From the NCBI RefSeq assembly GCF_024713975.1, contig NC_091110.1, forward strand, positions 19,187,501-19,251,500: a stretch of 64,000 bases of DNA. The letters run 5' to 3'. The notes beneath the pieces are model-generated. The model was given only the letters and a program-made list of their open reading frames with translations, searched no databases and had not been told where the DNA came from. Made by a program: the position numbers and the translations under genes. Below, in pieces: positions 3,755 to 62,525 of this stretch (positions within the stretch are counted from its first letter, which is position 1; every line of letters starts with the position of its first letter). This DNA is from Paralichthys olivaceus. Taxonomy: Eukaryota; Chordata; Actinopteri; Pleuronectiformes; Paralichthyidae.

Positions 3755-5467
3755 CTACTTGTTCAGGTTCTCCAACAGGATTTCAGCCCCTTTGTTGTTG
3801 CTGATGCTGCTGAGCTCTGACGTGATGGGCTTCAGCGCCGCCTTCACCTCCGCAGCCACCGACTTGTCGCAGCTGTTCAGGAGGCTGCACACAAACACAG
3901 AGGAATTAATTTAAACTGATTAAAGTTTCATTTACGACACAGGACCTGGTGTTTACACCCGTCCTGAGAGATCTGACCACAGCTCCAGGTTCTGTTCACA
4001 CCTGGTGTTTAAAAATGTCTTGAATGTGTCTCCTGTGATCAGTCATCTCTCTGTGTGTGTGTGTGTGTGTGTGTGTGTACTAACCTGCAGAGAACCATAG
4101 CTCCTCTGTTCACCTTCACCCAGGTCTTCAGTTTGTCAGTTCCCACCGTGTCCACCAGTATCCTGCCAAACCGCTCTGAGAGGGCGAGAGAGGTCAGCGG
4201 CAGCAGGGAGAAGGCAGAAGAGAGAGAGAGAGAGGAGCAGAGGAATATAAGTTTTTGATTTTCCTTCACCTCCCGATTCTGTTGTTTTCTTAAAAACTTG
4301 ACTGGTTTCAGTTTGATCTTGCTGAAAGTTTAAATGTTCCCATCTTATATTTCCAGTGAGTAAACAAACAGCCACTGGTTTGTTTACCTTCCTTTTCTGC
4401 CTCCAGCAGCGTCATGTCCTGCTCTATGAGCCACTTCAGCACCAGGTGTCCTGCTGGATGTTCGGCCATGTGGAGCTGCAGAGAAAATAAAACAGGTCAC
4501 GCTGAGGAACAAAACAACCTTTAACCAGACTAATTCATCTTTTCTCACACGCACCAGGCCGCCTATCCCTCCCGGCACCAACTCTTGATTGGCCAGCTGA
4601 GCCACGGCCGTCATGGCGGGCCTCAGGTCCCCGCAGGCCGATGCCAAGATGTCGCTAACGGTGACGCTGGTGGCCTTGTCCATCACCATGGTGGCAGCGT
4701 TGTCACGGAGATGGTCCAGCAGGAGCGGGGAGACGACCTCCAGCAGCTCCTTCCTCCGAATGGCTGATTCTTTTTTACTGAAGAGAAGACGAGTCACAGA
4801 GTTTCACTTTGAAACTACTTTACAATGACTGCAGATTAATAATCTATCACATCGATGAGCAGCTTTTAACTGGACTCATTCTCTTTAATGTCTTTAATTA
4901 CCTGTGAGCGTTTCCGTCTCCTTTCTCCAGCACCTTGATGATCTCTGGCAGCAGGTGAGCCGGGTCTCTGGGGCTCAGAAGATACAACAGAACCTTCTTA
5001 CCGTATTTATTACCGATGACCTCGTCCAGAGACGAAAGGATCTCCTGAAGAGGACGGAGAACAGACCAGATTAAACACTGACAAACACGGAACTGAAGGA
5101 GTCACACATGTGATGAGGTTAATAAGATGATTCTGGATTTACTGAGAGCACGGCTTGTTTGACCAGCTTGGTGTCGTCCACACAGTCGAACAGGGCCAGA
5201 AGAACCAGGTGACCGAACTCCCCCTGTGGACCGAAAACAGAAAGTCTGAGATTCAGACCTTTTCTAAACTTCACTTCTCTAATAACACTAGCAGCTTGTT
5301 TCAGTGAGTGAATGAATGAATGAATGAATGAATGAATGGATGAATGGATGGAGGCTCACTGAGAACTCACCGTAGCAAACTTCACCATGAACGTCTTCAT
5401 AGTTTTGATGATGACTTTTCTGTCCTGAAACAAGAAATAAAACAAAGATACTGTGCTGTTCACTTTG

Positions 5468-5498
<31 letters not shown>

Positions 5499-6034
5499 CT
5501 CTCTCTCTCTCTACACACCTTGGCCGTCCCGTGCCACAAACACTGCATCGCCACTCGAGCTCCGTCGTGTGTGTGAGCCATGTAGACGACCGACTCTCTG
5601 ATGGACTCGATCATTTCCTGCTCACACAACAAAGAGTCAAACCGTTAAACAGACCTGTGGACTCTTCATCCAGGAATTCATTTAATATTCGTCTGTACAA
5701 ACATTAAAGGGATAATTCAACAGTGTGAAGAGTCGAGGTTCTGCTCACCGCTCTCTGTTTGTCGGCTGTGAACAGGAAGAAATCCAGGAAAACCTTGTGA
5801 ACCAGCGAGTGTTTGATCACCTGTTCTCTGAAAACACAACGACAGTTAGTATATATATAAGATTTAAATGATTTTACTTCCAATTCTCATCTCACGTCAT
5901 CTAATTCTTTTTTTTCATATCTTACTTTGTGGCCATGGGAGTGAGAATCTGCTTCATCTCATCGATTATGTTGCTCAACTTTCCCGGGTTCGCCTCCGCT
6001 ACTTTCTCGATGGTGTTACACACCGAGGACTGGA

Positions 6035-6107
<73 letters not shown>

Positions 6108-6249
6108 CACAGCAGGTTTTTCCACTGACTTCACTCAAGTTATAAATATTTGTTATAGTGTAAAAACACTTTCTAAAGAGACTTCAGGTAAAAATACATT
6201 TAAAAATCCTGTTTAATGAGAAATGTCAAAATTGAATTCAGAGGAAATG

Positions 6250-6303
<54 letters not shown>

Positions 6304-8108
6304 CTTGCAGACAGTGAAGGTGTTGCCGTACAGCTCCTCTGTGAGCATGAGTCTCTGTGCGAGCACAGCTTTGTCGTTGTAGGCGTACTCAATGATGGAC
6401 GAGGCGGCGGAATGGCGGAGCATCGTGCGCACGTGACCTTTAAACGTTTGCATCACCGCCGCCAACAGCTCCTTGTTCCTGTGGAGGAAACAAATCCACA
6501 ACGAGAATCTTACACACGCGTCCGCGGACAGGAAGGAGAACCGAGTCCACGCAGCTTGTTAGGAACCGTGAATGAACGACACCGTAGCGAGCGGGTTGTC
6601 GGTGGTTGTTCGGAAGTGGACGGAACAACAGAAGAACTTGTTCATAGAGAAGAAGAGAATGTGAGGACTCACCCGTACATCAGCAGTTTTTTCACCACGT
6701 GTCGGCCGTACTGAGATTTACACAAACCAATGACATCATCTGGAAAGAACAAATGAAAACAGTTCATGTTTGTCGCGTCAGAAAATGTAAAACCAGGAGC
6801 TGGACCACCGACCAGATCCGGATGCTCCGCCCATCACATGCCTTTTTAACGAACCTTTGAGTTCTTCAAACACTTCCTTTCTCTGCTCGTGGCTCCCGAA
6901 CTGGATGAAGCACTGCAGCACGCGCACCGAGTCGTGAGCAAACGCCATCTAGAGGCAGAGACGACAATGTGCAAGATTTCAGTTCAGAGAAAACACAAGA
7001 GCAGCAGCATCAGTTCACAACAAAGATGTCGACAACGTGCGCTCGTTCCCACAAAAACTCTCAACACAGTAACAAGTCGACAGTAAACTAATGAAACAAC
7101 AGAGTGACACTCACCTGTTTGATTTTCCCACGGATCAGATCATGAAGCTCCTTCATAAGTTTCTTCTTCAAGTCCTCGTCACAATTCTTCCTGTTGACAC
7201 AAACAGACACACACACGTTGTGATTATGATCATGATTTAACTATAACACAGAAACCTACTGGGAATGTGCTTATTGAAGGTAAGGTTCAGTGTCATCCCT
7301 GAACCTTTTTATTTGTTTTACGAGTCTGAACAACAGGAATATTTTCACGACACATATTCAACCTGAACTGAAATGTTTCAGAAAGTAAACACGTATGCAC
7401 CTCCTGAGGTTTCCCCACACTTGTTTGGAGTGACAGATGATCTCGAACATGTCCTTCCTCTCCGCCTGCTGTCTGTTCTTCTTCAGGTCCTTCTTCCTCT
7501 GCTGCCTGTTTTTCTTCATCTCCTCCTTCGTCATCTCTTTCTTAGGCTGAAACTCTCCCTTCTTGACCCTCTTTGCCCCCGGACCTGTTTTCACAAGTCA
7601 CACTCAATTATCAAGAAAGGATTCAGAACCAGGCAGTGGGGGAAAATCAAGGTAAAGTTCAGATGCTAAATTCTCAAACACAAAGAAGTTTCTCACCTTC
7701 ACCCTCTTCATCTTTAGCTGGGTGTAGTTTCCTCTTCTTCTGTCCCATCCCGGCTTTGGAGAAACCAAATTTCTGTTCTTTTTTGCCGTCATATCTTCCC
7801 TGCCCCGGCCTGCTCTTCTTCTCCGCGTTGTTGTATGGTTTAAAGGGTTTCTTACCACCTGGTTTACCTCCAGGTTTACCGCCCAGTTTACCTCCAGGTT
7901 TACCGCCCAGTTTACCGCCCGGCTTTCCTCCCAGTTTAGTCCCTATGGAGTCTGGACAGAATGAGACATGTGAGTGACAAGACTGGTCAGAAATGCCTAC
8001 ATGTCCGGTTGATGTGAAACGTGATCTTTTTTTTTTTTTACCTTTTCCTTTCTGAGTAAACTTCTTTCCTCCTTTAGGAGAAAAGGGTTTCTGGGATTTG
8101 GCCTCCAT
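3755..8108 (-). CDS. pum3: Pumilio homolog 3 (Puf-A/KIAA0020), complete coding region
   Basis: A nucleolar PUF-like RNA- and DNA-binding protein used in large-subunit ribosome maturation. The 17 coding exons in transcription order are 8108-8042, 7951-7697, 7584-7401, 7190-7115, 6948-6855, 6739-6673, 6478-6304, 6029-5926, 5827-5749, 5617-5519, 5424-5371, 5223-5143, 5044-4902, 4777-4555, 4475-4388, 4175-4085 and 3884-3755. They sum to 2010 nt, or 669 residues; human is 648. Recognisable blocks include AFAHDSVRVLQCFIQFG, YAYNDKAVLAQR, EELYGNTF, HSLVHKVFLDFF, HTHDGARVAMQCLWHG, YGKKVLLYLLSPRDPAH, GDGNAHSKK and the C-terminal NRGAMVLCSLL. The N-terminal 120 residues are basic and low-complexity, with a PGGKLGGK-type repeat in exon 2 that human lacks. 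The start codon follows a pyrimidine-poor TTTAG, so a 5' non-coding exon is likely, with a good GTGAGT donor at 8918. Confidence 0.95.
4050..4078. repeat. (GT)n microsatellite in a pum3 intron
   Basis: About 28 bases of GT dinucleotides, ending six bases before the 3' edge of the exon that encodes the NRGAMVLC block. On the minus (sense) strand this is an AC tract just after the donor site. Confidence 0.9.
5287..5352. repeat. (GAAT)n/(GGAT)n microsatellite in a pum3 intron
   Basis: A run of gaat tetranucleotides that drifts into ggat units at its right end, in the short intron between the exons at 5143-5223 and 5371-5424. Confidence 0.85.
5470..5512. repeat. (GT)n(CT)n compound microsatellite
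   Basis: A GT run followed directly by a CT run, in a pum3 intron. It abuts the donor side of the 5519-5617 exon. Confidence 0.85.
6038..6105. repeat. (GA)n microsatellite in a pum3 intron
   Basis: About 67 bases of uninterrupted GA. On the transcribed strand this is a long CT tract ending eight bases before the acceptor of the 5926-6029 exon, so it supplies that exon's polypyrimidine tract. Confidence 0.9.
6252..6302. repeat. (GT)n microsatellite in a pum3 intron
   Basis: About 50 bases of GT. It reaches the donor of the 6304-6478 exon, where the sense strand reads GTACACAC. Confidence 0.9.
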
Positions 8109-9244
8109 CCTAAAGCACAACGAGGAAAACAGCAGAAAGACCAACAGGCTTTAAGTTGCGTCGTCAGAACCTAGAGGACGTTCGGTTCAACAGACTCTTT
8201 GCTGAGACGTCGATACTTCACATCACTAATTCTTTACAGCGTCACCGGTGCTCTACTCTGTTGATGGTTGACTGTGTTCACAGAAATACAACATGGTGGA
8301 GTCGTGACTTCTAATCCAAACTGTTTTCTGTGTAAATGATGTGGGAAGGAAGTTTCCTTTTCTGTTATTGTAAATGTTGATGAGTTGAGCGCATGGACAT
8401 TTTTAATTAGCTCCAGAGAAAACCTGAGAGGAGACAGAAGACATTTAATAGATATGTAATAGATCTGTACGTTGTGTGTGTGTGTGTGTGTCATGTCTTT
8501 TTCCCCTTTTCCACGTTTTGTAAATGTAAAGAACAAATGGTGTGATGCAGAAATAATAAATGTCTCTATTGCTTAACTGGACAGATGCAGTTTCACTTCC
8601 ACGAGTTTCTTACAGGAGCAAATAGTCACTTCATGAATATCTCTGCTGGTGTGACGACGAGACAGTGAAGAGCTGTGAACACTGTGAACACAGAAATATG
8701 AAGATGGAGTCTGTGGAGCAGAAACCTCAGATAACGAAGCAGGAACACGTCAACGAAGCAGCTTCAGTGATGGTTCGGGTTTATTCATGATTTGAACCCG
8801 AACCCGTCCTTCGGCGGCTCGCACACCGGAAGTCAACACGCGTTATAAAACCTTTCGTTCGTGACGTTAACACGAACACGAATCGAGTTTTTAAATCGTG
8901 TCTGAAGCTGTAACTCACGTTTCAGAAGCTCACACGCGCCGCCACCGCGATATCCCCATGCGTTCTGCCACCGTCACGATTTACGGCACGAATCGTCCAA
9001 TCGCGTTCCGTTTCAGCTGCCGTAAAGCGATCGGAGTCGCGACAGTTGCTTCACGGGTGAAAAGCGGCGGGATTCGAACGTTTGGCGTCGACGCGTCGGT
9101 AGATTTCAACATTTCTAATCCGACAGTGACCGACGGCAGCGCGATCCACTGTGTGTCGGTGATATTAACGTTCGGCAGCGACACGCGGCGGCCATGTTTG
9201 TTTACATGTCGCATTTAAAGGGACAGCAGCCCCGTAAACCTCTC

Positions 9245-9258
9245 GTTACCATGGTAAC
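9245..9258. promoter_or_regulatory. RFX X-box palindrome GTTACCATGGTAAC
   Basis: A perfect 14-base inverted repeat matching the RFX-family consensus (GTNNCC AT GGNNAC type), about 610 bases upstream of the cfap44 start codon. RFX2 and RFX3 drive ciliary genes in vertebrates, and cfap44 is an axonemal gene. Confidence 0.7.
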
Positions 9259-9412
9259 ACCGATGTGTTTGAGTTCGTCATCAGTAACTCTGCACGTGTG
9301 TCGGTTGTGTTGCGAAACTTTCTGTTTCATCCCAAGTTACAGACGATTGCGACGATTACCAACGAGTGGCTCGTGAACTACATTGACCGGCAGGCTTTGC
9401 GGCACGTAACTT

Positions 9413-9425
9413 GTTGCCTAGCAAC
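9413..9425. promoter_or_regulatory. Second RFX X-box GTTGCCTAGCAAC
   Basis: A near-perfect inverted repeat with half sites GTTGCC and AGCAAC and a one-base spacer, the classical GTTGCC/GGCAAC X-box form. It lies at or just before the inferred cfap44 transcription start and 155 bases from the first X-box. Confidence 0.75.
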
Positions 9426-9864
9426 GCCTCCAAACTGAAACTCACGAGCGGAGAGAAAAAACAGGCCAAAGAGGTAAATATAGAAAAATGTGTCGTGGAA
9501 AATCCTTTTAAATTAATTAATTTACTGCACTGATGAGAAGAAACAGTTTTTAACATCATATATATTTATTTATAAAGTATTTATACACAGAAACATGTGG
9601 GATAGAGAAGAAGGGAGCAGCAGGGACACATGAATTTACGAGTTATTGTCAGTTATGGTTGAATATGTGAGGAGACATATTGAATATCAAGAAGTCTTGT
9701 TGTAGTTATAGTCAATGATCAACTGATCTGTGTTTCACTGTTAACGGTGGAGCTGCACATTTCTCTGTTTGCTTTACAGATAAAATAATAAGAACAAGAG
9801 CAGCTGATTGTTCGAGACGCAGCTCAGTCATTTATCCCGGTTGTCTTAATCCTAGATTTCTGCA

Positions 9865-12800
9865 ATGGACCCCGGCGGATCTTCCATCACACCGGACTCT
9901 GACATCCCAGAGAACCCGCTGCGCCTCTCGTATCCTTCTGCAAGAAATGATACCAACTTACAGAATCAGTCCTCTAAAGATGTCTCATCTTTCCTCTCAA
10001 GATCCATGAGTTATTTATCTCAGAAAGTGTTCTGTCTAGACCCATGTCTCGTCCTCCCACAAAGTTCTGTGGAAATGTGTTCAGTAGCTTTTACTTAATC
10101 CTGCCAGAACAAACAACAAACAGTGAATGTGATCTTGATCCTTTACTGATTCAAAAATTCAGTCACTCCTTCGGCTATGAGAGCGGACGCAGGGCGAACC
10201 TGCAGCTGCTGGATGACAAAACTCTGATGTTCATCGCAGGGAACCAGCTCGTCCTGCTCGACGTTTCCACCAAGGAGCAGAGATACCTGCGCTCCTGCAG
10301 CGGAGGAGGAATCGGCTGCATCACGGTAAGATGGCTGACAAACTGAATGTGTCTGACTGATGCTCCAGTCCGACAGAAAACTTTACATTTACTTCAGAAG
10401 AGCTTTGAGGTTGTCTTGCTTAAAAACTGTGTGTGTGTGTGTGTGTGATATGAAGGTTCACCCTAGCAAACACTACTTTGTTGTAGCAGAGAAGAGAAAC
10501 CAGCCCAACATCATCATATATAAATATCCATCCTTAAAACTGCACCGGATCCTCAGAGGTAAAAAAAAAAGTGACTAAGATGGAATCAGTCAAATCCTGT
10601 TCACGTTATTTAACGATCATCATGTTTTAACCTGCACGTCTGCAGGCGGCACAGAGCAGGCGTACAGCTGTGTGGAGTTTAACCATGACGGCAGCCTGCT
10701 CGCCAGCGTGGGCAGCGCCCCTGACTTCATGCTGACGCTGTGGAACTGGAGGCAGGAGGCGGTGACGCTGAGCTGCAAGGCCATTTCTCAGGAGGTCTAC
10801 CGGGTCAGCTTCTCCCAGTTCAACCCAGAGCTGCTCGCAACGTCAGGATCTGGACACATCAAGTAAACAACCAACGCAATCATCCTGAAACTACAAAACC
10901 TGCCTCATAAACACTTTTCACATCTTTAGACCCGATGACCTGCTATATCTCGTTTTTACACACACATGCACATTCCTTTGCTTTTACGTTCAATATGTTT
11001 GTTCTTATTTATAAATGGTAAAAAATACCTTCTCTGTCAGGTTCTGGAAAATGGCGAACACATTCACAGGGATGAAGCTGCAAGGGCTTGTGGGACATTT
11101 TGGGATAACTCCAGAGACTGATATTGAGGGCTACGTGCAGCTTCCTGATGGAAAGGTCGGTTCCCTGTTGCTGTGACAGCATAAGTTTCCTCTGTCGGAG
11201 TCAAGCGAAAGAATACTTAACCCTCGCTCTTGTGACTTCCTGTTAAAGGTGGTGTCCGGCACAGACTGGGGCAACTTGCTGCTGTGGGATGGAAACACCA
11301 TTAAGGCGGAGATTTGCAGAAACAAGACGCAGAGCTGCCACATCGGGACGGTTCAGCCGTTTGTTCTTGAGGAAGGGCAGCTGTTAACGATCGGTTCTGA
11401 TGGAATGGTCCGGGTGAGATATCCTCATATACCTTCAAGAACTTAACAAGGCTCAGTAGTTTCCCTAAACCAGCCGGGCACTGTGGTTTGGAGAGTTTAC
11501 TCTGCAGAGGATTCATTTACATTTCGTCCGAACAAAACCCAGAGAGTGATGGTCAGTGCTAAAATACAAACACATAATGTGGATATAAGTAGTTGGAAAT
11601 GAAAGATAAGAGGAAGTAGAAATACTGCACTGTGGTTGTTTGCCAGAATGTTTATGTATGTATTCATATGTCTCTATAAGCCGTATGATTTTCGACGCCC
11701 TGCAGGGCTGGGACTTTGAGAAGATCGACGCTGCAGACAGCAGCGTCAACGGCAGCAGGTTTGAGATGGAGCCGTTAAATGAGCTGGAGGTCGGAAACAA
11801 CGTCTGCCTCTCGTCCGTGGTGAAGAGCCCCCAGCCCGACTCCTCCGTCTGGTTTGCTCAGGTCAGTGCAGGACAAAGGGTCAAAGGTCATTAGTGATAC
11901 ATGATGCGTTCATTCCTCAGTTGTGATTTCTCTGCTCTGTGGATCTCGTGCTGCAGGATTCCTGCGGAGCGATCTGGAAACTGGATCTTTCTTTCACCCA
12001 CACGGTAAGTTCTCCACACGTTTATACACACGCTACTGATATTACACTTTGTTTGGTGCATTGATACGTGTTTGTGTGTGTGTGTGTGCGTGCGTGTGTG
12101 CAGGCTCCCGATCCAGAGTGCCTGTTTTCCTTCCATGCCGGGGGGATCCAGGGCATGGACGTGTCACCGAAATCCCACCTGATGGCCACGATTGCTCTGG
12201 ACCGTGAGTCACACACTTCCACACCTACACCCCCCCCCACACACACACACACTACAAAGGTACTGTGTCTCTCCCTCTATCCAGGTTCGGTCAGAGTTTT
12301 TGACTTCCTGTCCAACAGAGAACTGAGCACCAGCCGCTTCTTTCAGGCTGGAACCGCTCTCATCTGGGCTCCACCTGTGGTGAGTGTGTCGGCATGAATA
12401 CGATCCGTGCAGCCTCGTGATACGACAGAGGCGTGACCTCCGGTGTTTGTCTTCAGGTGAACCAGGGTGGGGGTTTGCTGGTGACAGGTTTTGACGACGG
12501 GGTGGTCCGGTTGCTGGAGCTGTTCGACCCTCAGAGGGTGTCTGCGGTCACCAGGCGCCAAAACAAAGGAGACGCCGGACTTCACCTCAAACAAGCCTTC
12601 AAACCCCACAATGCACCTGTAACGGCTGTGGCGTATGAGCGAAATGGAGACATCTTAGCCACAGGGGTAAGAAGTTGATGGACTGTACATAGCAGAGGTC
12701 GACTCCACTGGTTTTAAAAGAAGTCTCACCTGTTTGTTCTGTCGTCACTCGTGTCCTCCTCAGAGCTCAGACTGCACTGTGTTCTTCTTCACTGTCGGGG

Positions 12801-14936
12801 AATCTTACAGTCCCATCGGCTTTGTCCGTGTTCCTGGGCCGGTGCAGGGGCTGGAGTGGTCCCCTCACTCCCACGTAAGTCTGGTGTCTCACTTCCATTA
12901 GAATAATCATTCTGTGCTGGAACGTTACTGTTTACACCTGAAATCTTTTGCACTTTTCCTCAGAGTGAAAACCGGCTGCTCATCCTGTGTCAGAACGGTT
13001 GTGTGGTCGAGGTCCACAGTTCTGATCTGAAAGCTCAGAAGCCAACGGAGAGCTTTGAGCTGCTGGAGCTGCCTCGTAGATCCTTCAGGTTCAGGAGCAT
13101 CAAATCTCGAATCAAGGTTTAAATACGCACATCCTGTTTATTACATCAAACTGTGTTATGTTGTAATCTGTCTCGGTCATCATGTGTTGTTCTAGTATTT
13201 TCTCTCCCTCGACTCCTGCTGTCTCAAGGTTTATTTGAAAGGACTCCTGTAATAATCGTGTTTTTAATTGTGTATGTTTGTGTTTCAGAGAGAGGAGGAA
13301 AAGGCAAGACGTCAAGCTGAGAAGGAGAAGAAGAAGAAAGATTCGTTAAAAGAATCAAAGCTGGGAGAAGCGGAAGAGGAAGAAGAGGAGGAGGAGGAGG
13401 AGGAGGAAGAAGAGTTACCACCCATCCAGATGCCCCAAACTCCGAGTCCTCTCTACTGTGGCTTCTACTCACAGTCTGGACACTTCTGGCTGTCAATGGT
13501 GCATATCATGTCAGAGCAGTGGGCTCACCTGGTGGATAACCTGGGGAATGACAGATCTGAGGATGATGTGTGTGTCTCTCTCTCTCCTGTAGGGAGGCTT
13601 CGACTCAGGCTTCTTGTATCACTGTGAGTTCTCTGAGAAGCAGGATGAGGATCCGGAGCAACGGGAGGATGAGCCCTTTGACTTCTTACCTATTGACGAG
13701 ACAGATGACGACCCGATTCGCTCCGTCACCTTCAGGTAGCCGGAGTTCAAACTCTACAGCCTCATATTTTAAACTCCAATAGTTTTACCTCTTCATTCTT
13801 TGTTGTTTTATTTTATTTTTATGCGTAGCTCGAACAGGCAGATGTTGCTCTGCGGCATGCACTCAGGCTCCATCAGGGTCTACCTGCTGCAGCCCGGGGA
13901 CCACAGCCTCTCCTCCATGAAGGCCTGCCGGGCACTCAGTGTTCACGACAACCATTATGGACACCTGCGGCACATTCGCTGTAGCCATGACGACAACTTT
14001 GTGCTGACAGCGGGTGACGACGGTAACATCTTCTCCTTCAGCTTGCTTCCTCTGGAGGAGCTGCAGAGGAGCCTGCAGAAACAGAGGGCCGAGATTCCTC
14101 CACCCAGGGTCGGTCCACCTTTCAATAACATTTAATTCTTTCACATTTGTATTTAAAGGAGAGAAACTATAATTAGATTCAGCTTCATATGAATAGCAAA
14201 TAAATAGTGATATCATCTTTTTCACATGTTCACAGGTTGGTTTTGAAAAACAGCCATATGCTCATGACATTGAGAACTCTGCAACTGACAGGTGAGAACG
14301 TCACCTCCTTCGTGTTATTTCATTTTTCTTCCCGTCCATTTATTCAAGTGATTCATGAAGTAGATAACTTTGTTGTCTGTATTGTTTTCATTGAATTTCT
14401 TCCAGCATAGCGACGGCGAAACAGAAGCTGGAGAAGGATCGTCTGCAGCGGGAGGTGGAGCTGAAGATCACCGCCAAGAGGAGGAAGCTGGACGAGCTCA
14501 AGAGGAAGTTCCAACAGGTGCTGAAGGTCAACGAGAGTCTGCCAGAGCACGTTCGCCTGAAGCCTGAGGTAAACACACACACACACACACACACACACTG
14601 TAAATTACAAATACTGCATACACAACAGCTGGCCGTCATGAACCAAACCATTCAAGGTCAAACCTGTGTTGTGTTTAAGGTTAGAGTTTGACACATTCCA
14701 ATTACAGTATGGCCTCGAGGAAAAGACATGAAAGATGGTGTGTGTGTGTGTGTGTGTCTGTGTGTGTGTCTGTGTGTGTGTAGGAGCTGGAGCTGCACCC
14801 TTGTTTCAAAGAGGAGGCAGAAAGGTTGAAGTCGCAGCGAATCATGGAGGTCAGAAAGGAGCTGAGCTGGGAGAAGGAGCGCAGCCACATCGCACTCAGC
14901 AAACTACAGGATTGGTACTGAACACACACACACACA

Positions 14937-21050: not shown

Positions 21051-21833
21051 TCACAGAGCAGCCAGCTCCTGCAGCAGCGTCTCCTTCTCCCGCTGCAGCT
21101 CCACGATGCTCTGCTTGTTCTGCTCCAGCCGGTCCTCCAGCCACTGCAGCAGCGGCCCGCTCACCGCCGACATCTGGCTGCACAGGTTCTTGGTGAACAC
21201 GGAGCCGTTGTGGATCTTGGTGACGGGGTCCAGGTGCGCCAGGCTGTGGATCTTGCGGTACGTGTCCTGCTCCTCCTGGCACAGGATCCGCGGCAGCTCC
21301 ACGGCCGACTCCAGGCACACTTTGCCGATGGCCTCGCGGGGCACGACGTGGATGGGGATCTCCACGCGCTCGTACTCGGAGCCCTTCTGCGCCTGCACGG
21401 ACTGGAAGCAGGTGTACAGCACCCGGCCCGTCTTGGTGTTCTTGTCCTCGATGAAGCAGGAGAAGATGAGGCCCACGAAGCACTGGTCCAGCATCTGGTA
21501 CATGGCCTGGGTGCGCACGTCGACGTGGGACGGCCACACGGTGATGTGAGGGTGGGAGTGGTACCAGCCGACCACCCGCATCGACCTGCCCGTCATGTCC
21601 GCCAGCCTCTCCGCCTCCGTGGAGGCCGCGGACAGCTGCTCCGGGGAGATCTCCACCCGGTCCTTCCTCTTGTCGGAGCGGCGGAGGATGATGACGGAGT
21701 GGATGTGGACGATCCGCGAGGTCTCCACCTCCCCGATGCACAGACCCATCACCTCCTCCTTCTCCGTGCTCAGCGCGTGGTTCATGCACACCAGGAAGGC
21801 GTCGGACTCCAGGTGAACCGCGCTCACCGCCAT
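21051..21833 (-). CDS. brcc3: BRCC36 Lys63-specific deubiquitinase, single-exon
   Basis: BRCC36 is the JAMM/MPN+ metalloprotease that cuts K63-linked ubiquitin in the nuclear BRCA1-A (ARISC) and cytoplasmic BRISC complexes. One open frame of 260 residues runs from ATG to TGA without introns. The zinc-binding motif is intact: Glu27 in KEEVMGL, then HSHPH with His92 and His94, Ser102 and Asp105 spaced as H-x-H-x7-S-x2-D. The C-terminal third ends in a leucine-rich coiled coil (LLQWLEDRLEQNKQSI) used for pairing with Abraxas or KIAA0157. The 260-residue length matches non-mammalian BRCC36; human is 316. Mammalian BRCC3 has many introns, so the uninterrupted GC-rich frame suggests a retrocopy that stayed functional. 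No frameshift or stop is seen. Confidence 0.95.
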   Translation of the reverse strand: MAVSAVHLESDAFLVCMNHALSTEKEEVMGLCIGEVETSRIVHIHSVIILRRSDKRKDRVEISPEQLSAASTEAERLADMTGRSMRVVGWYHSHPHITVWPSHVDVRTQAMYQMLDQCFVGLIFSCFIEDKNTKTGRVLYTCFQSVQAQKGSEYERVEIPIHVVPREAIGKVCLESAVELPRILCQEEQDTYRKIHSLAHLDPVTKIHNGSVFTKNLCSQMSAVSGPLLQWLEDRLEQNKQSIVELQREKETLLQELAAL

Positions 21834-21959
21834 GGTTCCCTCAGGTCCGCGGGTTTACCCGGAAAGAGACGAAGACATGAGACATCAACACAGGAGCAGA
21901 GCTTCACTTCCGCGTTCTCGCGTACTGCGACAAAAACATTCCGGGTGGCTGCGGTGACC

Positions 21960-25142: not shown

Positions 25143-25212
<70 letters not shown>

Positions 25213-25365
25213 TGTGTGTGTCTGTGTGTGTCTGTCTCTGTGTGTGTCTCTGTGTCTGTCTCTGTGTCTGTCTCTGTGTGTCTGTGTGTGTGTGTCTGTG
25301 TGTGTGTGTGTGTCTGTGTCTGTGTGTGTGTCTGTGTGTGTGTGTGTGTGTCTCTGTGTGTGTGT

Positions 25366-25398
<33 letters not shown>
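25143..25398. repeat. Long GT/GTCT compound microsatellite
   Basis: About 255 bases of GT dinucleotides. The left 60 bases are pure; the rest is broken regularly by TC units (gtctgtgtgtg and gtctctgtgtc patterns). It directly borders the 3' side of the GC-rich block. Confidence 0.95.
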
Positions 25399-25400
<2 letters not shown>

Positions 25401-25681
25401 ACTCATGGCTGCAGTGTGTGATCCTCACATACATGATTCTTTGCGTCCTGGTTAGTTTGGATAATATTAAAATGTCTGTGTTATATGAGAAGTAGATTTG
25501 TGATCTTACTTTATTCAAACCCAGAGAAATCCCCAACTTCATTCAAGGTAACATTAGTGTGTCGTATTTCACGATACGTCCACACGACTGCGTGCTAATT
25601 AGGAAACGACTTCATCAATTTGACGACACACGCGAGAACTTTTTTAAATTCCCCTGGAAACATTTTCTGTGTCGTTTTCGC

Positions 25682-28456: not shown

Positions 28457-31414
28457 CTAAGGCACCTCTCTTAATATGGTACATTGACAGCTGCTGGTTA
28501 CATTAATTATTAAAAAGCTGCAATTAATTCCTAATCTGCTGCTTCCTTTTGGAGCAGAGACACAGTCTGATTACCTGACAAATAAACCCCCCCCCCCAAA
28601 AAAAACCGTTCACACTTAACAACAGCGTTTGCGCTTTTTATTTTAGAAAATTTAACTCGCGTTGACTTGTGGAGGGGAAGAAAGAATCAAAGGATCCCTC
28701 TGTCCTTCCTCGACCAGCCGTCAAAGTGGAGAGAGCGCTGAGGAAAGTATAATAATTCAGAATGTGCAGAAAAAAAATGTGAAGGTTTTCCCCAGAACCA
28801 GAGGAGATTGCAAATGATGTACAAATGTTGTGCCTCCAGGTCTCCTCCACATCTCTGCACCGGAGCCTGTGTGAAGCAAAGCTACGATAACAAAAAAAAA
28901 CACACGCTACCTGTCAAAGCAGAATAAGAAAGAGAGAAAGAAGAGAGACTTGTTTTTCATCCAGCAAATAAAAGAGGAGAAATCCCTGCTGAGAGAGATG
29001 AAGGTGTACACGAAGAAACAAAGACAGAAGCTTCAATTCATCCTGACACTTTCCAGCAGCAAATAAACGACAAAGAAGCCGAAAGAGAGAGAGAGAGAGA
29101 GAATGAAAGAAAGATGAGACTGGGTTTAGTCCCGTGGAGGATTCTTGGCAGTGACGTATAGATCTCATTACTTTCCAGTGTATTAATTCATGGTCAGTTT
29201 ATCAACAATCTGGTTCCTGGTCCTTTAGATGCTTTTATCTTCTCGATCTAACTTTTAATAATGTTCTGAGCTGAGAGGATTGTTAATCAATATCTGTAAT
29301 ATACAGCCAGTTACATTCTGTGTGTGTGTGAGGCCTTTGTTTTTGTCTCTGTTGGACTCTGCGGTCCAGTGTGTGTGTGTGTGTGATTGTGTGTGTGTGA
29401 ATATGAGAGGAGTTTGTGCGACACACAAAAAGAATCATTAATGCAGTAGCAGGGATGTTGTGTTTCAGAAAACAACAGTTGTGTGTTTGTTGACGTCCAA
29501 ACTCCTGCGGCGATGAACCATATGACTTTCCTACGAGTCACATGACGATGGCTGTACACATGGGAAATACCGCGAGTCAAAGAATGTAATGAAAGCTTCA
29601 CACAGAGAAGACCGATGTTGGATAATTAACACAGATAAAGATGCTGAGACAATCGTAAATCAGCCATTATTCATTTTGTGATATCGACGCTGCGCTGTTC
29701 ATCAATATTGATTATCTGAGGCGACAGCAGCACGACTCACTCGGAGTAAATCTAGGTCGTGCTCCTGGCACCAAGTCGACTTGATGGACTGGAATGATTT
29801 TACCTCAGAGAGCGGCGTGAAAGTGAGGAGTTCTCACTCCGCAGCTGCCTCTGGGGACTGAAACGTCCCCTGAAGTAGACGGAGCACTCACTCTACGGAG
29901 AAAAAAAAAAAGAAGCTTGATGACTCAATCTGTGGACTTTCAGGGATCGGCCCTGAGACACACGTGGTGTAACAGGATGTTTTTAAAAAAAAGTGAAATG
30001 CAACTAAAAACAAAAAATGTAGTCAAGCGTGACTTCACCCGGAGCTTCAGCTGAAGACACGTCCCTTCCCTGCGGCTTCCTCCCTCAGTCCAAAGACAAG
30101 CAGGTTAATTGGACCCTGTAAATTATCTGTAGGTGTGAGTGTGATGGTTGTTCGGGATGTTTCGTGATGTTTCCTGTGATTCTCCGGCGGTGAACCCTGC
30201 TTCAGCTGTGAGAGAAGAAACGCTCTGAAAACGAGGTCATGGCACAAACACTCTGCCTGAGGACCTGAAACCCTGAAACCGACAGTTACAACCTTTTTTA
30301 ATTTAGTTGTAGATCGTTGGCTTTTCTTTCATTTGCTGTTATAAAGTCTACAAGGGTTTTTCATCTTGACTTGGTTTGATGCCTCATCTCCGCCGTCACG
30401 CTGAGAGCAGTTTGCTTGATGTACGTCAGAAGTCTCCCCGCGGCTCATTGTGGCGACGACATCAAGGGGAAAAGTGAGCTGGTTTGGAAATGAAAGAACG
30501 AGAGAAGCAGCAGGAGAGAAGAGAGGAACGAGGGAGAGTCAAACAGAAGGAGAGAAAACGCACATGTAGGGCAGGGGAAGAGAGGGATGGGGTGAAAGAG
30601 AGGATGAGAGATAAAGCAATGAGAAAATCATCTGAGGTGGAAACACTTTACAAACCAAACCTCAGAGTCTGACAGAACAAACATGACTGATGTTCAAGCT
30701 TAAGCTCAAAGCCACATGTTGACGAGGGGAATGTGATCCAAATGTTTTAATGGCTCTGATGGAAACATGAGCGCCGGTCGAACGTGTTTCTGACCGACCA
30801 GCACTCAGACTCTCTCTAGTGTGGACGTCAGGTGGAAACGTAGCAGCAGAGATGCTTTTTAAACAGGTTGTAGTGTGGATGTAGCTTCCCCCTGGATAGA
30901 GATCTTGACGAAAATAATAATAATTCATAAATTTCGAGGACTGATATTTATGTGTGTGAGTCGGTGCAGCTTGATTGAATTTAAGGGACTGTTGGGCCTC
31001 GGTGGAGGTTTGAGCTCGAGGAAGTGCTGGTCTAGATAACTGAGAAAGTCTAAATCAGTGGAACCTGAAGTGTTCATGAAGCTGCGTTTTAAACATCCTG
31101 CTCCTGTGATGTGATGTGTTTCCTGTTGAAACTGTGAAGCACTGGCACGTTAGATTTATTGGATTTAATTAATCAGCGTTCAGAAAAGCTCCTGACTGAA
31201 GATTTAAAAACTCTGACTGAGGCTAAAAACTTAAGATTTCTCCTTCGTGGCAACAATCAGATTCATAAACTGTCAAAAAGACGTGAAACCTGAGAGACGA
31301 CGGCTCCACTTCCTCCACTGACGGGGAGAGAGAGAGAAAGAGAGAGGGGGAGCAGTGGGTGGGACGGCAGCAACATCGTGACCAGTAACTCTTTGCACTT
31401 GGAAAACCACCCCA

Positions 31415-31600
31415 CACCTCTCCTCTTCCTCCTCCTCTTCCTCCTCCTCCTCCTCGTCATCTCCTTTCTTCACCTTCTCTCCCTCTGCTCCTTCTGCCTC
31501 CGTCACCAGGCAACTGGCCGGTCCTCCCTCCCTCTGCTTTCTCTCTCTTCCTCTCTCGTCTTCGTCACTCCCTCTTTTTCTCGTGCATTAAACCTCTCTC
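31415..31600. repeat. Polypyrimidine tract with (CTC)n core
   Basis: A nearly uninterrupted C/T stretch with triplet CTC/CCT repeats at the left, grading into irregular pyrimidine sequence. The complementary strand gives a glutamate-rich open frame, which I read as a consequence of the repeat. A second (CTC)n block lies at 33861-33905. Confidence 0.8.
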
Positions 31601-45900: not shown

Positions 45901-48900
45901 ATCCGTGTGTCGGTGGAAATTACACAGAAATACTGCGATATAGCTAAAAGGAAATGTTAACAGATGAAGATGGTGAAAACTTACTGGTGGTAGTTGTAGT
46001 AATAGTACATGTACTACTATCACCAAATATTTGCAAGCTGCTGGAATGTTTGTGTGTAGACTGTTTGTTTGTTTTTCAGCAGGATTACTCAAAAACTGCT
46101 GAATGCGTTCACAACACTTGGTCGAATTGACCTTGTTGAGAAGAATTTCAGGGGACTGATATCTGTGAGTGTGGGTTGGTGCAGCTTGTTTGAATTTTCT
46201 GTACTTTCTTTGAGGAGTATTTTCTTTTGGAATTGAAAAACTCTTCAGAATCAACACACGGTCATCTCTGAGTGAGAGCCAGCTGGTGCAGATCCACATT
46301 AACACTGGATCCAGTGGTTTCATAGGGGTGAAGGAGTCATGTGGATTAGATGCAGGGTTTAAAGGGACTGTTGGGTCTCACCTCCACTGGGCGTCATTCT
46401 ACTTCGTCTTGTTTGCTTCAGCTCTCGGTGGAAAACAAATATTTCTGACCTGTGTTTATCAGACTACTAAACCAACACGAGGAGCCAGCTTTTCCAGAAC
46501 AGGACGTCTGTTTTCTTGAATAATCGCAGTCAGCGCTCTGAAGATGTGAGTTTGGTAATTTCCACAACAAATATGCAGATATGGAGAAAAGTTCTATTTC
46601 ATTTCCGATGCTAGAGTTTAATTTCTCGGTGATAAAGATTAATCTGCCGCCTCAAAGTTACAGGAACACCAGTTTAAATATTCATGTTGTTTCACTCAAG
46701 TATTCATTTTACTACAGCGACATGTTGTATGAGCTTGTAGTATTAATTAAAATGAGCAGTATTCATTTTAATATTTATAACTGGATCACATATGAATGAG
46801 TCTGAAAGTACTGATGCTTGTTGTTATCTGTCATGTGAAGGATAAGAAAGGAGGAAACACTGCAGCCTCCTGATAGACACACACACACACACCAGTCATT
46901 TCTTCTCTGTCCTGAAGGACTAGATTGTCGTCGACTCCTCCGATTGTCTCGTCTCCGGTTTATCTCCCCTCTCTCTCCTGTTGTGTGTGATTGCTCATAC
47001 ATTTTTAATGTCTCTTTGTGCTTTATGGTTTTGTTCTTGTTCGTTGTATTGAGATGCAGGAACCAGGGAAAACCTGTCCTCCACAATCTGTACGTGACAA
47101 AGCTTCTTTTTACTGTGTGAACACAGTCAAGATAAATTCAACCTTATTAGTGAACAATAGTTGTTAGCAGACAGTTGCGCACTTAGACATCCATCTTGGC
47201 CACCAAATTAATGAAAGTCCAATATTCCCTCTCTTTTAGCTCCGGTTCTTTTCTGCCTCTTCTGCATTAAAGTACCCTACCTATAATTCCAATGTGGGTT
47301 TTTAGAGGTTTGTTTTGGCTGAAAACATCTGCTGCTTCCATTAAAGCAGCAGTTAGAATCAATTAGTGAAGATGTTGTTGGCTGAGCAGTTAAAGAAATA
47401 AAATGAAACTCACCAAAAAGTACCATAAAGCCAAATTTGGCCTTGTTGATGTTTTAAAAAATATTTTTAAGATGAATCCCAGATTAGAAACACACTGGTT
47501 GAATTAATGGTTGTATAAAATGAATATATATATATATTAATAAATATAGATCTCTTACTTCTCCACCACCTCTAACTAAACATTTAGAAATAATAATATT
47601 CTCTACAGTTTGGTCCCGTGCTTTCGTTCATTGTAAGGATGAGTGTCAGCTGACCGAGCTGCTGGTTCACCCTCAGGGAATCATGACTGACACTGATCAC
47701 GCTACAGACACTGCTGCTTTTCCACCAGTGACGACAGATCAATAAGCTCAAATCCTCCCCCTTGTCTCACCCCCGACCCTCACACCCCCTGGAGGGCTTC
47801 ATTAACACCACGACAGTTCGATGCTAAAGTGACAAATACATGAAACCTTCTGTGAGCAGTTTCCTCGACAGAAGGAACATTTCTAAATTATTTTAAATGA
47901 GCTTATTAGCTATTTTCCTTTACTCTGAAAACATTGGTTTTAAATTATTAATCCCGCCCAGTGAGACTGTATTTATTTAATGAATTACATTGGAAAGGTC
48001 TGGTTTGTTCGAACCCACAGTTAGAATATAACAGTAAATCCACTGTGACGTGTTGTTTACCATAATGTGTTGTGGTGTTTTCCCACACACCAGCATGGAG
48101 CAGCATTAGCAGTCATTTGCAAACTGTGATGGGAAGTAAAAGTTTTAACAGCCGCTGCTTTATTGCACTTTTTACGCCACAGAACGGTTTATCTCTCGGC
48201 AGCATCAGAGGAAATGACGAGATTTCACCTTAATCCAAGTGTTTATCTTCGCTATGGTGGACACTTTTAGGACGTCTTAAATTCTGTCTGTTTGTTTAAG
48301 TCAGTTTCTGTAGGAGTCTGTAACAAAAGGACTTTACTTCTCACCTGATTTATAACGTCAGTAAACATTTATTCTCAGGAGTTTATGTCTCAGTCTCTAG
48401 TTTCAAGACTTCTTCAACACCGCTGATGTTCGTTTTGTAAATTATGATCATTAAGAGTCAAATAAACCATGAAGCACCGGACGTATTGGGGCGTGGATAC
48501 AGTGTGATTGACGGCTAGTACCGTCCAATGGGTGTAGGTGGGCGTGCAGTGTCAGTCAGGCTCCACCCCCTTCTTTCTCCAAATATGGTTAATTATGGTC
48601 TTAAAAAAAAACCAAGATGACACTGGACAAATTGTGGTCAGGGTGTGCTTTAGCATGCTAACACGCTAATGTTAATGGTAACATGGAATTTAAATTACAA
48701 TTAGCATAGATATGGTGTTATTGTAAACCGCTAATGAATAAGCTAACGTGAAGCCCTGACATCTCCTCAGGGTTCGTCTTTAATCCAAAGTCTTCAGAAA
48801 GTCGATGTAATCTCTCACTAAACATTCCTTCCATTGGTTCATTGTGCTCCAGGGGTTTTACAACAATCCATGTTCCAAGATAAATGAGTATCTGTGCCGG

Positions 48901-52137: not shown

Positions 52138-54037
52138 GAGGATGTGAGGTATGATGATCGATCCTATGAGTCATCCAGAGCTGTTGAAGCTGTGTTTTCT
52201 CAGAGGTGTGAGGGATGTGCAGCACCAGGCCCGGCTCACTCCCCGGCTCACTCCCCGGCTCAGATTTTCCACGTATCACACGGCGACGATCTGAATATAT
52301 TTTTCATGATAAGATTCCAGAGACAAACTTAAACATTTTCTCCAGGTCTCAGTGACAGAATCCACGCTGAGAATAAAATCCCCTCAAAGACAAGTCGTCC
52401 CTTGTTTCCCCCGCAGCTCCTTGTGAGTCTGTTTGATTGAATTGCATCTTGCTGTGAGATACTTTCGATGCTCTTGCCTCCGTAATAGAACTCTGAAGAT
52501 GTAGCTTTATATGCAGATACAAATGTTGTTGTGTCTGTGGAATAAAAACTGCTCCCGTCATGTTTCTGTCTCTTCAGGTGTACACAGCGTCCAACCCCAA
52601 TGGGACGACCACAGGGAAAACCTTCAAGGTTCACCTTCAGCTCTGGGACACGGCCGGACAGGAGAGGTGGGCGTGAAACTTTTAACAGTTTCTAAAGGCC
52701 TGATGACTCACTGCAGGATGATGTGGCATTATTTGTATAATTCTGATTCCATTCATTCAGCTCCTGATGAATCCAATAATCTTCTAGCTGTGTTTTAATC
52801 TCGCTGCTGGAAAACGAAGCAGATGAGATTCAGAGGAAACAGGAAAGTTTAGGGAGTAAAAATCTAAAGATGTTAAGATACTTGTGTTACATATTGTATT
52901 TGATGATTATTTGTGGGTCGTTAAGAGCAACCTCTTCCTCTGACATGTAAATCTAAACCTCCACAGTGGTGCCCAGTGGTCCTTAGAGGAACTACACCTC
53001 CCACATAATATGGAGCAGCCCGATGTGCTGTTTTTATCTCTATTTGTTTTTAACCCTGTTTGTTGAATGTTCCAGGTTCCGCAGCCTGACGACGGCGTTC
53101 TTCAGAGACGCCATGGGCTTCCTGCTGATGTTCGATCTCACCAGCCAGCAGAGTTTCCTTAACGTCAGAAACTGGATGAGTATGTTTTTATTTAAAAAAA
53201 GGTTCCTTTGTCGTAGCTGTCAGACATTTTAGGTGTGTGAGGATTCAGATTTATCCGATTTATATTTGCACATCTCATTTGTTCGCCACTGTCGTCTATT
53301 CTCTTTCATTTCCAGGTCAGTTACAGGCCAACGCCTACTGTGAGAACCCAGATATCGTGTTGATAGGAAACAAGGCCGACCTGGCCGACCAGCGGGAGGT
53401 TCAGGAGAAACAGGCCAAAGAGCTGGCCGATAAATACGGGTACTTTTAGTTTTTAATGCACTTAAATTTGCACATGCATTTGTATAGACAGTGAAGCAGC
53501 TGCAACACGTCACATAACACAACAGACCGTCAATGCATGACTTGTCTCCACTTAAACAAATGACTTCCTGGTTAGAGGCAAAGAGCGTTTCCTGGTTCCT
53601 CTCCAGTCGGCAAAACTCGGTCTGATGTTGCCAGGCAACAAAACTCAGTTCAGGGATGTACTCACAGGATAAACATCAGGGACTGATTTACATGTTCAGT
53701 TAATTCAGATATCATGTTTTTAAAGTAAGTCATGTTTACAGATTCATAAATCTATGTACTAAAATTCTAAAATGTGTTAAAAGAAGAAAATCATTCAAAT
53801 TGACTCGTGGAGCTTTTGAATAAAACGTCTTCTGGTCTTGACCCTCACAGGATCCCGTACTTTGAGACGAGTGCGGCCACGGGAACGGAGGTGGACAAGG
53901 CGGTGATAACGCTGCTGGACCTGGTCATGAAGAGGATGGAGCAGTGCGTCGACAAGCCGCCCGCCGAGCCGGCCAACGGTAACGGGGCGGCAAAGCTCAG
54001 CGATGCGCAGCCCAACGAGAAGAAATGTGCGTGTTAG
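51285..54037 (+). CDS. rab27b: Ras-related GTPase Rab27B, complete coding region
   Basis: Rab27 GTPases recruit effectors such as synaptotagmin-like proteins, melanophilin and Munc13-4 to secretory granules, melanosomes and exosome-forming endosomes. Coding exons: 51285-51437, 52578-52666, 53076-53179, 53316-53439 and 53851-54037, giving 657 nt or 218 residues, the same length as human RAB27B. Visible motifs are the P-loop GDSGVGKT at residues 16-23, switch [15 protein letters not shown] for guanine specificity and ETSAA. The C-terminus KKCAC carries the CXC double geranylgeranylation signal. The first 38 residues follow the RAB27B form ([16 protein letters not shown]), whereas RAB27A has [13 protein letters not shown]. 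The ATG exon begins at 51264 after a CAG, so the 5' UTR is spliced. The donor of exon 4 (GTACTT) is weak, but the join restores [11 protein letters not shown] exactly. Confidence 0.96.
52083..52135. repeat. (CA)n microsatellite in a rab27b intron
   Basis: About 52 bases of pure CA in the intron between the first two coding exons. A short direct triplication of cccggctcact follows near 52229-52262. Confidence 0.9.
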
Positions 54038-61213: not shown

Positions 61214-62525
61214 TCAGACTTTGGTGACGTTTTCTGTTTGTTGCGGCGGCGGCGGCAGCGGCTGCTCGTCGTCTTCTTCGTCCACGTTCAGGTCCAACCT
61301 CAGGTTATCAAGAGTCTGACGGATGGTCAGAGTCTCTATCTGTCTGTGAGAGACACAGAGAGAGGACGGTTGATTGAGACGAGACGAGATGATATAAGAT
61401 AAGATAAGAAAAGAGGAGATGATATAAGATAAAATGATATAAGATAAGATGATATAAGATAAGATAAGATAAGAGGAGATGATATAAGATAAGATGATAT
61501 AAGATAAGATGATACAAGATAAGATAAGATGATATAAGATAAGATAAAATGATATAAGATAAGATAAGATAAGATGATATAAGATAAGATAAGATAAGAT
61601 AAGATGATATAAGAAAAGATAAGATGATATAAGATAAGATGATATAAGATAAGATAAGATGATATAAGATAAGATAAGAAAAGAGGAGATGATATAAGAT
61701 AAAATGATATAAGATAAGATAAGAGGAGATGATATAAGATAAGATGATATAAGATAAGATAAGATGATATAAGATAAGATCATCTTTTCTTAGTCCCACA
61801 ATGAGGAGCCCGTGTGAGGGTTGAGTAAAGAGAACGTACTTCTTCTGATGATGGCCTTGCAGCTGCTTCCGCAGCGTGGCGTTTATCTCCATCTCCTCGG
61901 ACAGCTCTCTCTGGGTCATGCGGTGATGCGCCTCCTTCCTGCTCGCATCCTCCTCCGCCTCGTTCAGCTGACGCTTCAGGGAACGGATCCTCTGGTTCAT
62001 CTGGACGGTCACAGATCACCATGGTTAGTTTGGACGAAGCATGAAAACCTCCCTGCTCATCAACGCTCCATTTTGAGGCAATTTAAACATTTCTAAAAGT
62101 CAGTATAATATAATACACTATAAAAACACAGGTAAGAACCTCTACAGAGAGGAATACAACTAATGATCGGTACAAATATTTAAAGTCTTAGATTTAGTGA
62201 ATCCATTCGAACAAGAAAGGTTGACGATATCAAATGTTAAAACGAGCAACGATAATGAAACTGTCCACACACGGAACCTGATCCTGAGAAGTTTTACCTC
62301 CGTTTGTTTTTTACAGAACACGTTTTCTTGAAACTCTGTGAAAAGATGAAACTTGGGGACTAAGAATGAAAGCAGAACATTTTGGCTTTGATCTGAACAT
62401 AAAGGTGGAGTCAGGGATTTTTTTATACGACTTTCTTTGTCAGAGGTTTGAGCTCTACTGATGGTTTCATTTATATTTATGTGTATTTCAGATTTTTGTT
62501 TCACTAATTGATTAATTGATTTGTG

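Follow-up and report, generated by a model that had tools for sequence, protein, structure and literature searches.

Two strict X-box sites in the CpG-rich stretch between pum3 and cfap44: a probable RFX-driven ciliary promoter

Targets of Rfx2 and Foxj1 in Xenopus, and of RFX2 in mouse testis, have an X-box near the start of an axonemal gene, as described in the texts of PMC5245798 and PMC4498915. In mouse testis, nearly 3,000 RFX2 peaks were reported, with 977 promoter peaks concentrated near starts and approximately two thirds of all peaks outside promoters (PMC4498915). In Xenopus multiciliated cells, RFX holds FOXJ1 at ciliary promoters (PMC5245798), and cooperation of forkhead and RFX factors on ciliary genes is described in both PMC5245798 and PMC10393296, the former also reporting that forkhead motifs are enriched at multiciliated-cell promoters. 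RFX-regulated genes in Drosophila are enriched in palindromic X-boxes; there, the most degenerate X-box is equally frequent upstream of negative control genes, and conservation is needed to identify functional sites (PMC2375033). Paired Rfx/Fd3F sites, combining RFX with a FOXJ1-related factor, are also found at Drosophila motility genes (PMC6367277).

Promoters are termed bidirectional when the two starts are less than 1 kb apart (PMC4089025), and 7.84% (1,098/14,014) of the CAGE-defined promoters of zebrafish are of this type (PMC6292497). In mouse skin, the promoters bound by RFX2 and MOF include head-to-head ones, many of them belonging to ciliary and mitochondrial genes (PMC10362062), and PACRG and Parkin are transcribed from one bidirectional promoter (PMC8074078). 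With the mouse skin pairs and the zebrafish promoters in print, a shared promoter is therefore known in kind.

The locus described here lies in a 64-kb window, the whole stretch of DNA analysed, in which pum3 and cfap44 are arranged head-to-head on opposite strands, with their 5′ ends facing and their start codons, at 8108 (−) and 9865 (+), separated by 1757 bp. Common to both genes is the largest of nine CpG-rich stretches listed at a lenient threshold (4000 bp in total). The original prediction of a shared pum3/cfap44 promoter is borne out in the identity of both genes, their facing start codons and this common stretch. The features that define the locus are:

4387..8108, minus strand: pum3 coding exons; the open frame 4387-4803 encodes a CPL domain and the start codon is at 8108; limits approximate
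8651..9450, no strand: CpG-rich stretch between pum3 and cfap44, 82 CpG
10163..12874, plus strand: further cfap44 coding exons, 494 aa read by eye; the gene extends past these exons

The 494-residue translation of the right-hand exons gives full-length matches to CFAP44 chains in the PDB (8j07, 9d2f and 9fqr; best E 1e-194), with the related proteins CFAP43 and CFAP57 scoring far below. On the left, ten open frames were scanned against Pfam and one, on the minus strand, had a match, to the CPL domain (E 9.9e-20); this frame also hits human structures 4wzr and 4wzw (E 1.4e-17), labelled KIAA0020, which we take to be PUM3. More PUM3-like segments, judged by eye, occur in the translation from 8108; the pum3 open frame 7674-8108 had no match among solved structures. 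CFAP44 has been linked to male infertility in people. The protein forms part of the axonemal tether/tether-head complex, as described in PMC6367277. When CFAP44 was used in one scan of viral contigs, no relative was returned.

In common with the motile-cilia promoters of Xenopus and mouse, the locus has a forkhead-type site nearby; it differs in that the cfap44 promoter is predicted from sequence, and in having two strict X-boxes 167.5 bp apart. The comparison with PRKN/PACRG, where PACRG is likewise axonemal, is one of arrangement, the genes themselves being different. The mouse skin RFX2/MOF promoters share the head-to-head layout, whereas here the partner is a ribosome-assembly gene and the RFX sites are predicted. 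The Rfx/Fd3F study concerns a fly, and its text states that the CFAP44 homologue was missing from the array used (PMC6367277).

The case for RFX control centres on two sites:

9245..9258, no strand: X-box 1, GTTACCATGGTAAC, spacer of 2, perfect 14-base palindrome
9413..9425, no strand: X-box 2, GTTGCCTAGCAAC, spacer of 1, nearer cfap44

Both are exact matches to GTNRCC-N0-3-RGYAAC in a strict consensus scan of the window. This form, with half-sites GTNRCC and RGYAAC and a spacer of 0-3 bases, is said to be that of Emery 1996. An RFX1 crystal structure reportedly contains a symmetric X-box resembling site 1, a likeness not used as evidence here; the text of PMC13042984 mentions an RFX1-DNA structure but gives no sequence for it. 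By inspection, both sites also satisfy the looser RYYNYY-N1-3-RRNRAC, a form taken from PMC2375033. The two sequences were found at exactly the coordinates claimed for them, and their earlier description as one perfect and one near-perfect palindrome, each fitting the RFX X-box, is accurate: the five-base arms of X-box 2 (GTTGC and GCAAC, around CTA) are perfect, and when its arms are taken as six bases on either side of a single-base spacer, five of the six positions pair. The half-sites differ, being GTTACC in X-box 1 and GTTGCC in X-box 2. One-mismatch matches occur close by at 9126-9140 and 9277-9288, among 15 such sites in the window. The centre-to-centre distance of 167.5 bp corresponds to 15.95 turns at 10.5 bp per turn, a single number that is not evidence. 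The three direct repeat families and seven inverted pairs in 8100-9880 do not overlap the X-boxes, and no RNA element matched Rfam at gathering thresholds anywhere in the window.

Two strict X-boxes in one CpG-rich stretch are rarely produced by chance. Dinucleotide-preserving shuffles of the 800-bp stretch 8651-9450 contained none in 49,417 of 50,000 cases, one in 581 and two in just 2, and none of 20,000 simulated Markov sequences for 8790-9480 contained two. Five exact matches are present in the 64 kb (starting at 9245, 9413, 31378, 31502 and 53627). A set of 40 first-order Markov sequences gave an expectation of 0.475, and three other models gave 0.26-0.96, so the window as a whole is also above expectation. 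When up to two mismatches are allowed, the window contains three copies of GTTRCCATGGYAAC, where 0.57 would be expected and 1 of 100 shuffles had as many; site 1 is the only copy there free of mismatches. The looser 15-base form RYYNYY-N3-RNNRAC is not in excess in the window, with 68 found against 76.9 expected. Palindromy as a signal was rejected: other even palindromes of at least 14 nt containing G or C are found at 46003, 46303 and 55964, and because comparable palindromes of 14-16 nt exist elsewhere in the window, palindromy by itself is insufficient. It is the X-box match, rather than palindromy, that distinguishes the two sites.

The position of these sites relative to transcription depends upon the first exons of both genes, which were placed by splice scores only. 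The predicted elements are:

8919 (7.5 bits) or 8934 (5.9 bits), minus strand: possible donors, by splice score, for a non-coding first exon of pum3
9426..9473, plus strand: predicted 3′ part of cfap44 non-coding exon 1, donor GAG/gtaaat, 7.4 bits
9780..9929, plus strand: predicted cfap44 exon 2, containing the start codon at 9865, with a weak donor CTC/gtatcc

The donor after 9473 is the best for cfap44 in 9200-10200 and lies 48 bases beyond the end of X-box 2; lesser donors above 4 bits occur at 9666 (6.3), 9596, 9295 and 9253. The acceptor opening the exon at 9780 is the best for cfap44, at 12.8 bits, and ATG is absent from both 9426-9473 and 9780-9864. If the predicted exon is real, its 48-base spacing makes X-box 2 the promoter-proximal site, and, with the best donors used, X-box 2 would coincide with the start of cfap44 exon 1 or fall immediately upstream or downstream of it; the 5′ end of this exon could be upstream of X-box 2. 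Directly past the CpG-rich stretch, in the predicted cfap44 intron 1, there is a 16-base A/T palindrome, TAAATTAATTAATTTA, at 9509-9524.

Other candidate donors for pum3 are found at 8827 (6.9 bits), 8246 (6.0), 8614 (5.4) and 9250 (5.2). The acceptor one base ahead of the pum3 start codon scores 9.9 bits, and a stronger one at 8423 (13.0 bits) leaves room for an additional non-coding exon. Use of the best donors would place the starts of pum3 and cfap44 in or beside the CpG-rich stretch, with 8919 or 8934 and 9473 giving a predicted separation below ~555 bp; donor 8827 would give less than ~650 bp, and for 8246 the bound exceeds 1 kb.

For neighbouring elements, 24 motif patterns in consensus form, 4 of them forkhead forms, were tried in 8750-9480 (731 bp), with expectations taken at the window rate:

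8826..8833, plus strand: ETS-type site CCGGAAGT, the sole exact one in the window
8997..9003, plus strand: CCAAT box of NF-Y type, 0.21 expected
9188-9195, minus strand: YY1-like site ATGGCCGC, 0.03 expected in 731 bp
9195..9205, minus strand: forkhead-type site GTAAACAAACA, possible FOXJ1 site
9293..9298, no strand: E-box CACGTG, one site, between the X-boxes

The forkhead-type sequence occurs twice in the whole window, with 0.02 expected in 731 bp, and lies 39 bases from X-box 1. The E-box, entered twice because both strands are counted (0.41 expected in 731 bp), may be due to chance. The remaining counts in 8750-9480 were below expectation for a TATA-like TATAAAA at 8844-8850 (+) (1 against 1.92) and for MYB (2 against 2.82), with one CRE half-site against 0.50. 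Patterns for NRF1 (two forms), E2F, Sp1, the full CRE, and ZNF143-type and THAP11-type sites gave no match in 8750-9480, nor did the commoner YY1 form, AANATGGCG. As 24 patterns were tried, single neighbouring motifs are not strong evidence on their own. The X-boxes and forkhead site fall in the cfap44 half of the CpG-rich stretch, whereas the half towards pum3 has the ETS site and the CCAAT box, a layout that suggests two modules within one CpG-rich stretch; for pum3, the ETS-type site is a candidate general promoter element.

The two palindromes are probably functional RFX sites of the cfap44 promoter, while pum3 would be driven separately and show little or no response to RFX. This reading is favoured by the rarity of paired sites in the shuffles, the presence of CFAP44 downstream, and the position of X-box 2, which ends 48 bases before the best-scoring donor. 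We infer that an RFX dimer would occupy X-box 2 beside the cfap44 transcription start, and X-box 1 ~170 bp further up, the protein most likely being RFX2 or RFX3 in multiciliated and sperm-making cells. Bound RFX would recruit FOXJ1 or keep it in place, the forkhead-type site at 9195-9205 being one possible position, and cfap44 transcription would be raised during motile ciliogenesis. From the opposite side of the CpG-rich stretch, pum3 would be driven by the general ETS and CCAAT elements. The preferred interpretation is a cfap44 promoter that lies in a CpG island common to both genes and is driven by RFX, perhaps with help from FOXJ1. Promoters of this sort are standard for ciliary genes, and the present one seems well formed but ordinary.

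Several observations temper this account. At FOXJ1-bound promoters, forkhead motifs are depleted relative to distal sites and are not particularly conserved (PMC5245798), which weakens the forkhead step, and the site at 9195-9205 may be incidental. Against the placement of the cfap44 start stand the reliance of both first exons on splice matrices, the other donors above 4 bits, and the weak donor of exon 2. The TATAAAA at 8844-8850 (+) would be compatible with rightward transcription beginning well upstream of the two X-boxes. No literature joining X-box, RFX and CFAP44 was found, nor was site 1 as a 14-letter string, in a search that covered few subscription journals, which makes either absence weak. 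The main text of PMC4745085 names neither cfap44 nor wdr52, and wdr52 is also not mentioned in the main text of PMC5245798.

The original prediction had asked whether RFX input also reaches pum3, or whether the two directions are insulated. It is possible, if unlikely, that the two X-boxes act both ways, RFX raising pum3 together with cfap44 and coupling ribosome assembly to the onset of ciliogenesis or sperm formation. The X-boxes, like the CpG-rich stretch, are situated between pum3 and cfap44, and with the donor at 8919 or 8934 the first exon of pum3 would fall inside the stretch, ending 311-326 bases from site 1. Head-to-head pairs are, moreover, included among the RFX2-bound promoters of mouse skin, many of these pairs belonging to ciliary and mitochondrial genes and going down in the MOF knockout, as reported in the text of PMC10362062. 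Set against this is the division of the stretch, with the X-boxes and forkhead site in one half and the ETS site and CCAAT box in the other. Independently of RFX, a gene for ribosome assembly should be active in most cells. No literature joining pum3 and cfap44 was found either, an absence that is again weak given the few subscription journals within the search. The fuller version, a two-way switch raising both genes together in cells assembling many cilia or flagella, such that translation capacity would rise with the supply of axoneme components, is marginally less likely again.

A CTCF insulator in the shared promoter was rejected, as 8750-9480 contains no match to a CTCF-like core, of which there is one in the whole window. 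This absence is compatible with two-way action, and because of it the question of insulation is not prompted by any feature. Neither insulation nor two-way action is shown by the sequence itself.

A division of labour between the sites is similarly doubtful, and overlaps with the other readings: site 1 would belong to the general promoter architecture, bound by an RFX1-type factor in most cells, leaving site 2 as the sole ciliary switch. The differing spacers (2 and 1) and half-sites, and the greater distance of site 1 from the predicted cfap44 exon, are consistent with this, but RFX paralogues are not separable from sequence, and DNA-binding specificities are similar across the RFX family, as described in PMC4745085. 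That the matches are chance sequences without function is very improbable, for although three more exact X-boxes lie away from the CpG-rich stretches, the window total is above expectation and several palindromes of at least 14 nt with G or C are present, two exact sites in 8651-9450 were matched in so few shuffles, and the downstream gene is of the class for which the X-box is known.

As a type, the element is itself expected. If RFX-driven expression of cfap44 is confirmed, the locus would add one more well-formed vertebrate case of RFX control over a tether-complex gene, and would offer a compact natural test of one-way versus two-way RFX action where a general cell gene shares the promoter.

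The remaining exact X-boxes of the window, at 31378, 31502 and 53627, lie outside the CpG-rich stretches, and an exact site is therefore no proof of a promoter. Two of them form a further pair, 31378-31389 (GTGACCAGTAAC, spacer 0) and 31502-31514 (GTCACCAGGCAAC, spacer 1), with starts 124 bp apart, and the two open frames around 31378-31514 had no Pfam match. The third, GTTGCCAGGCAAC at 53627-53639, lies within a 15-base odd palindrome and is flanked by a Ras-family exon at 53180-53446 (E 5.2e-07) and by a frame at 53804-54034 that resembles the end of a rab27 and had no Pfam match. Elsewhere in the window, an uninterrupted open frame of 267 aa at 21054-21854 (−) encodes JAB and BRCC36 C-terminal domains (E 2.5e-31), and a long CA/TG simple repeat at 25144-25424 is read as VCVC or HTHT in overlapping frames. 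The frame at 61308-62015 (−) matches the myosin tail family over residues 6-52 (E 1e-07), its 30.7 bits falling short of the curated cut-off, 38.1, and this myosin-tail-like part is followed by a degenerate simple repeat.
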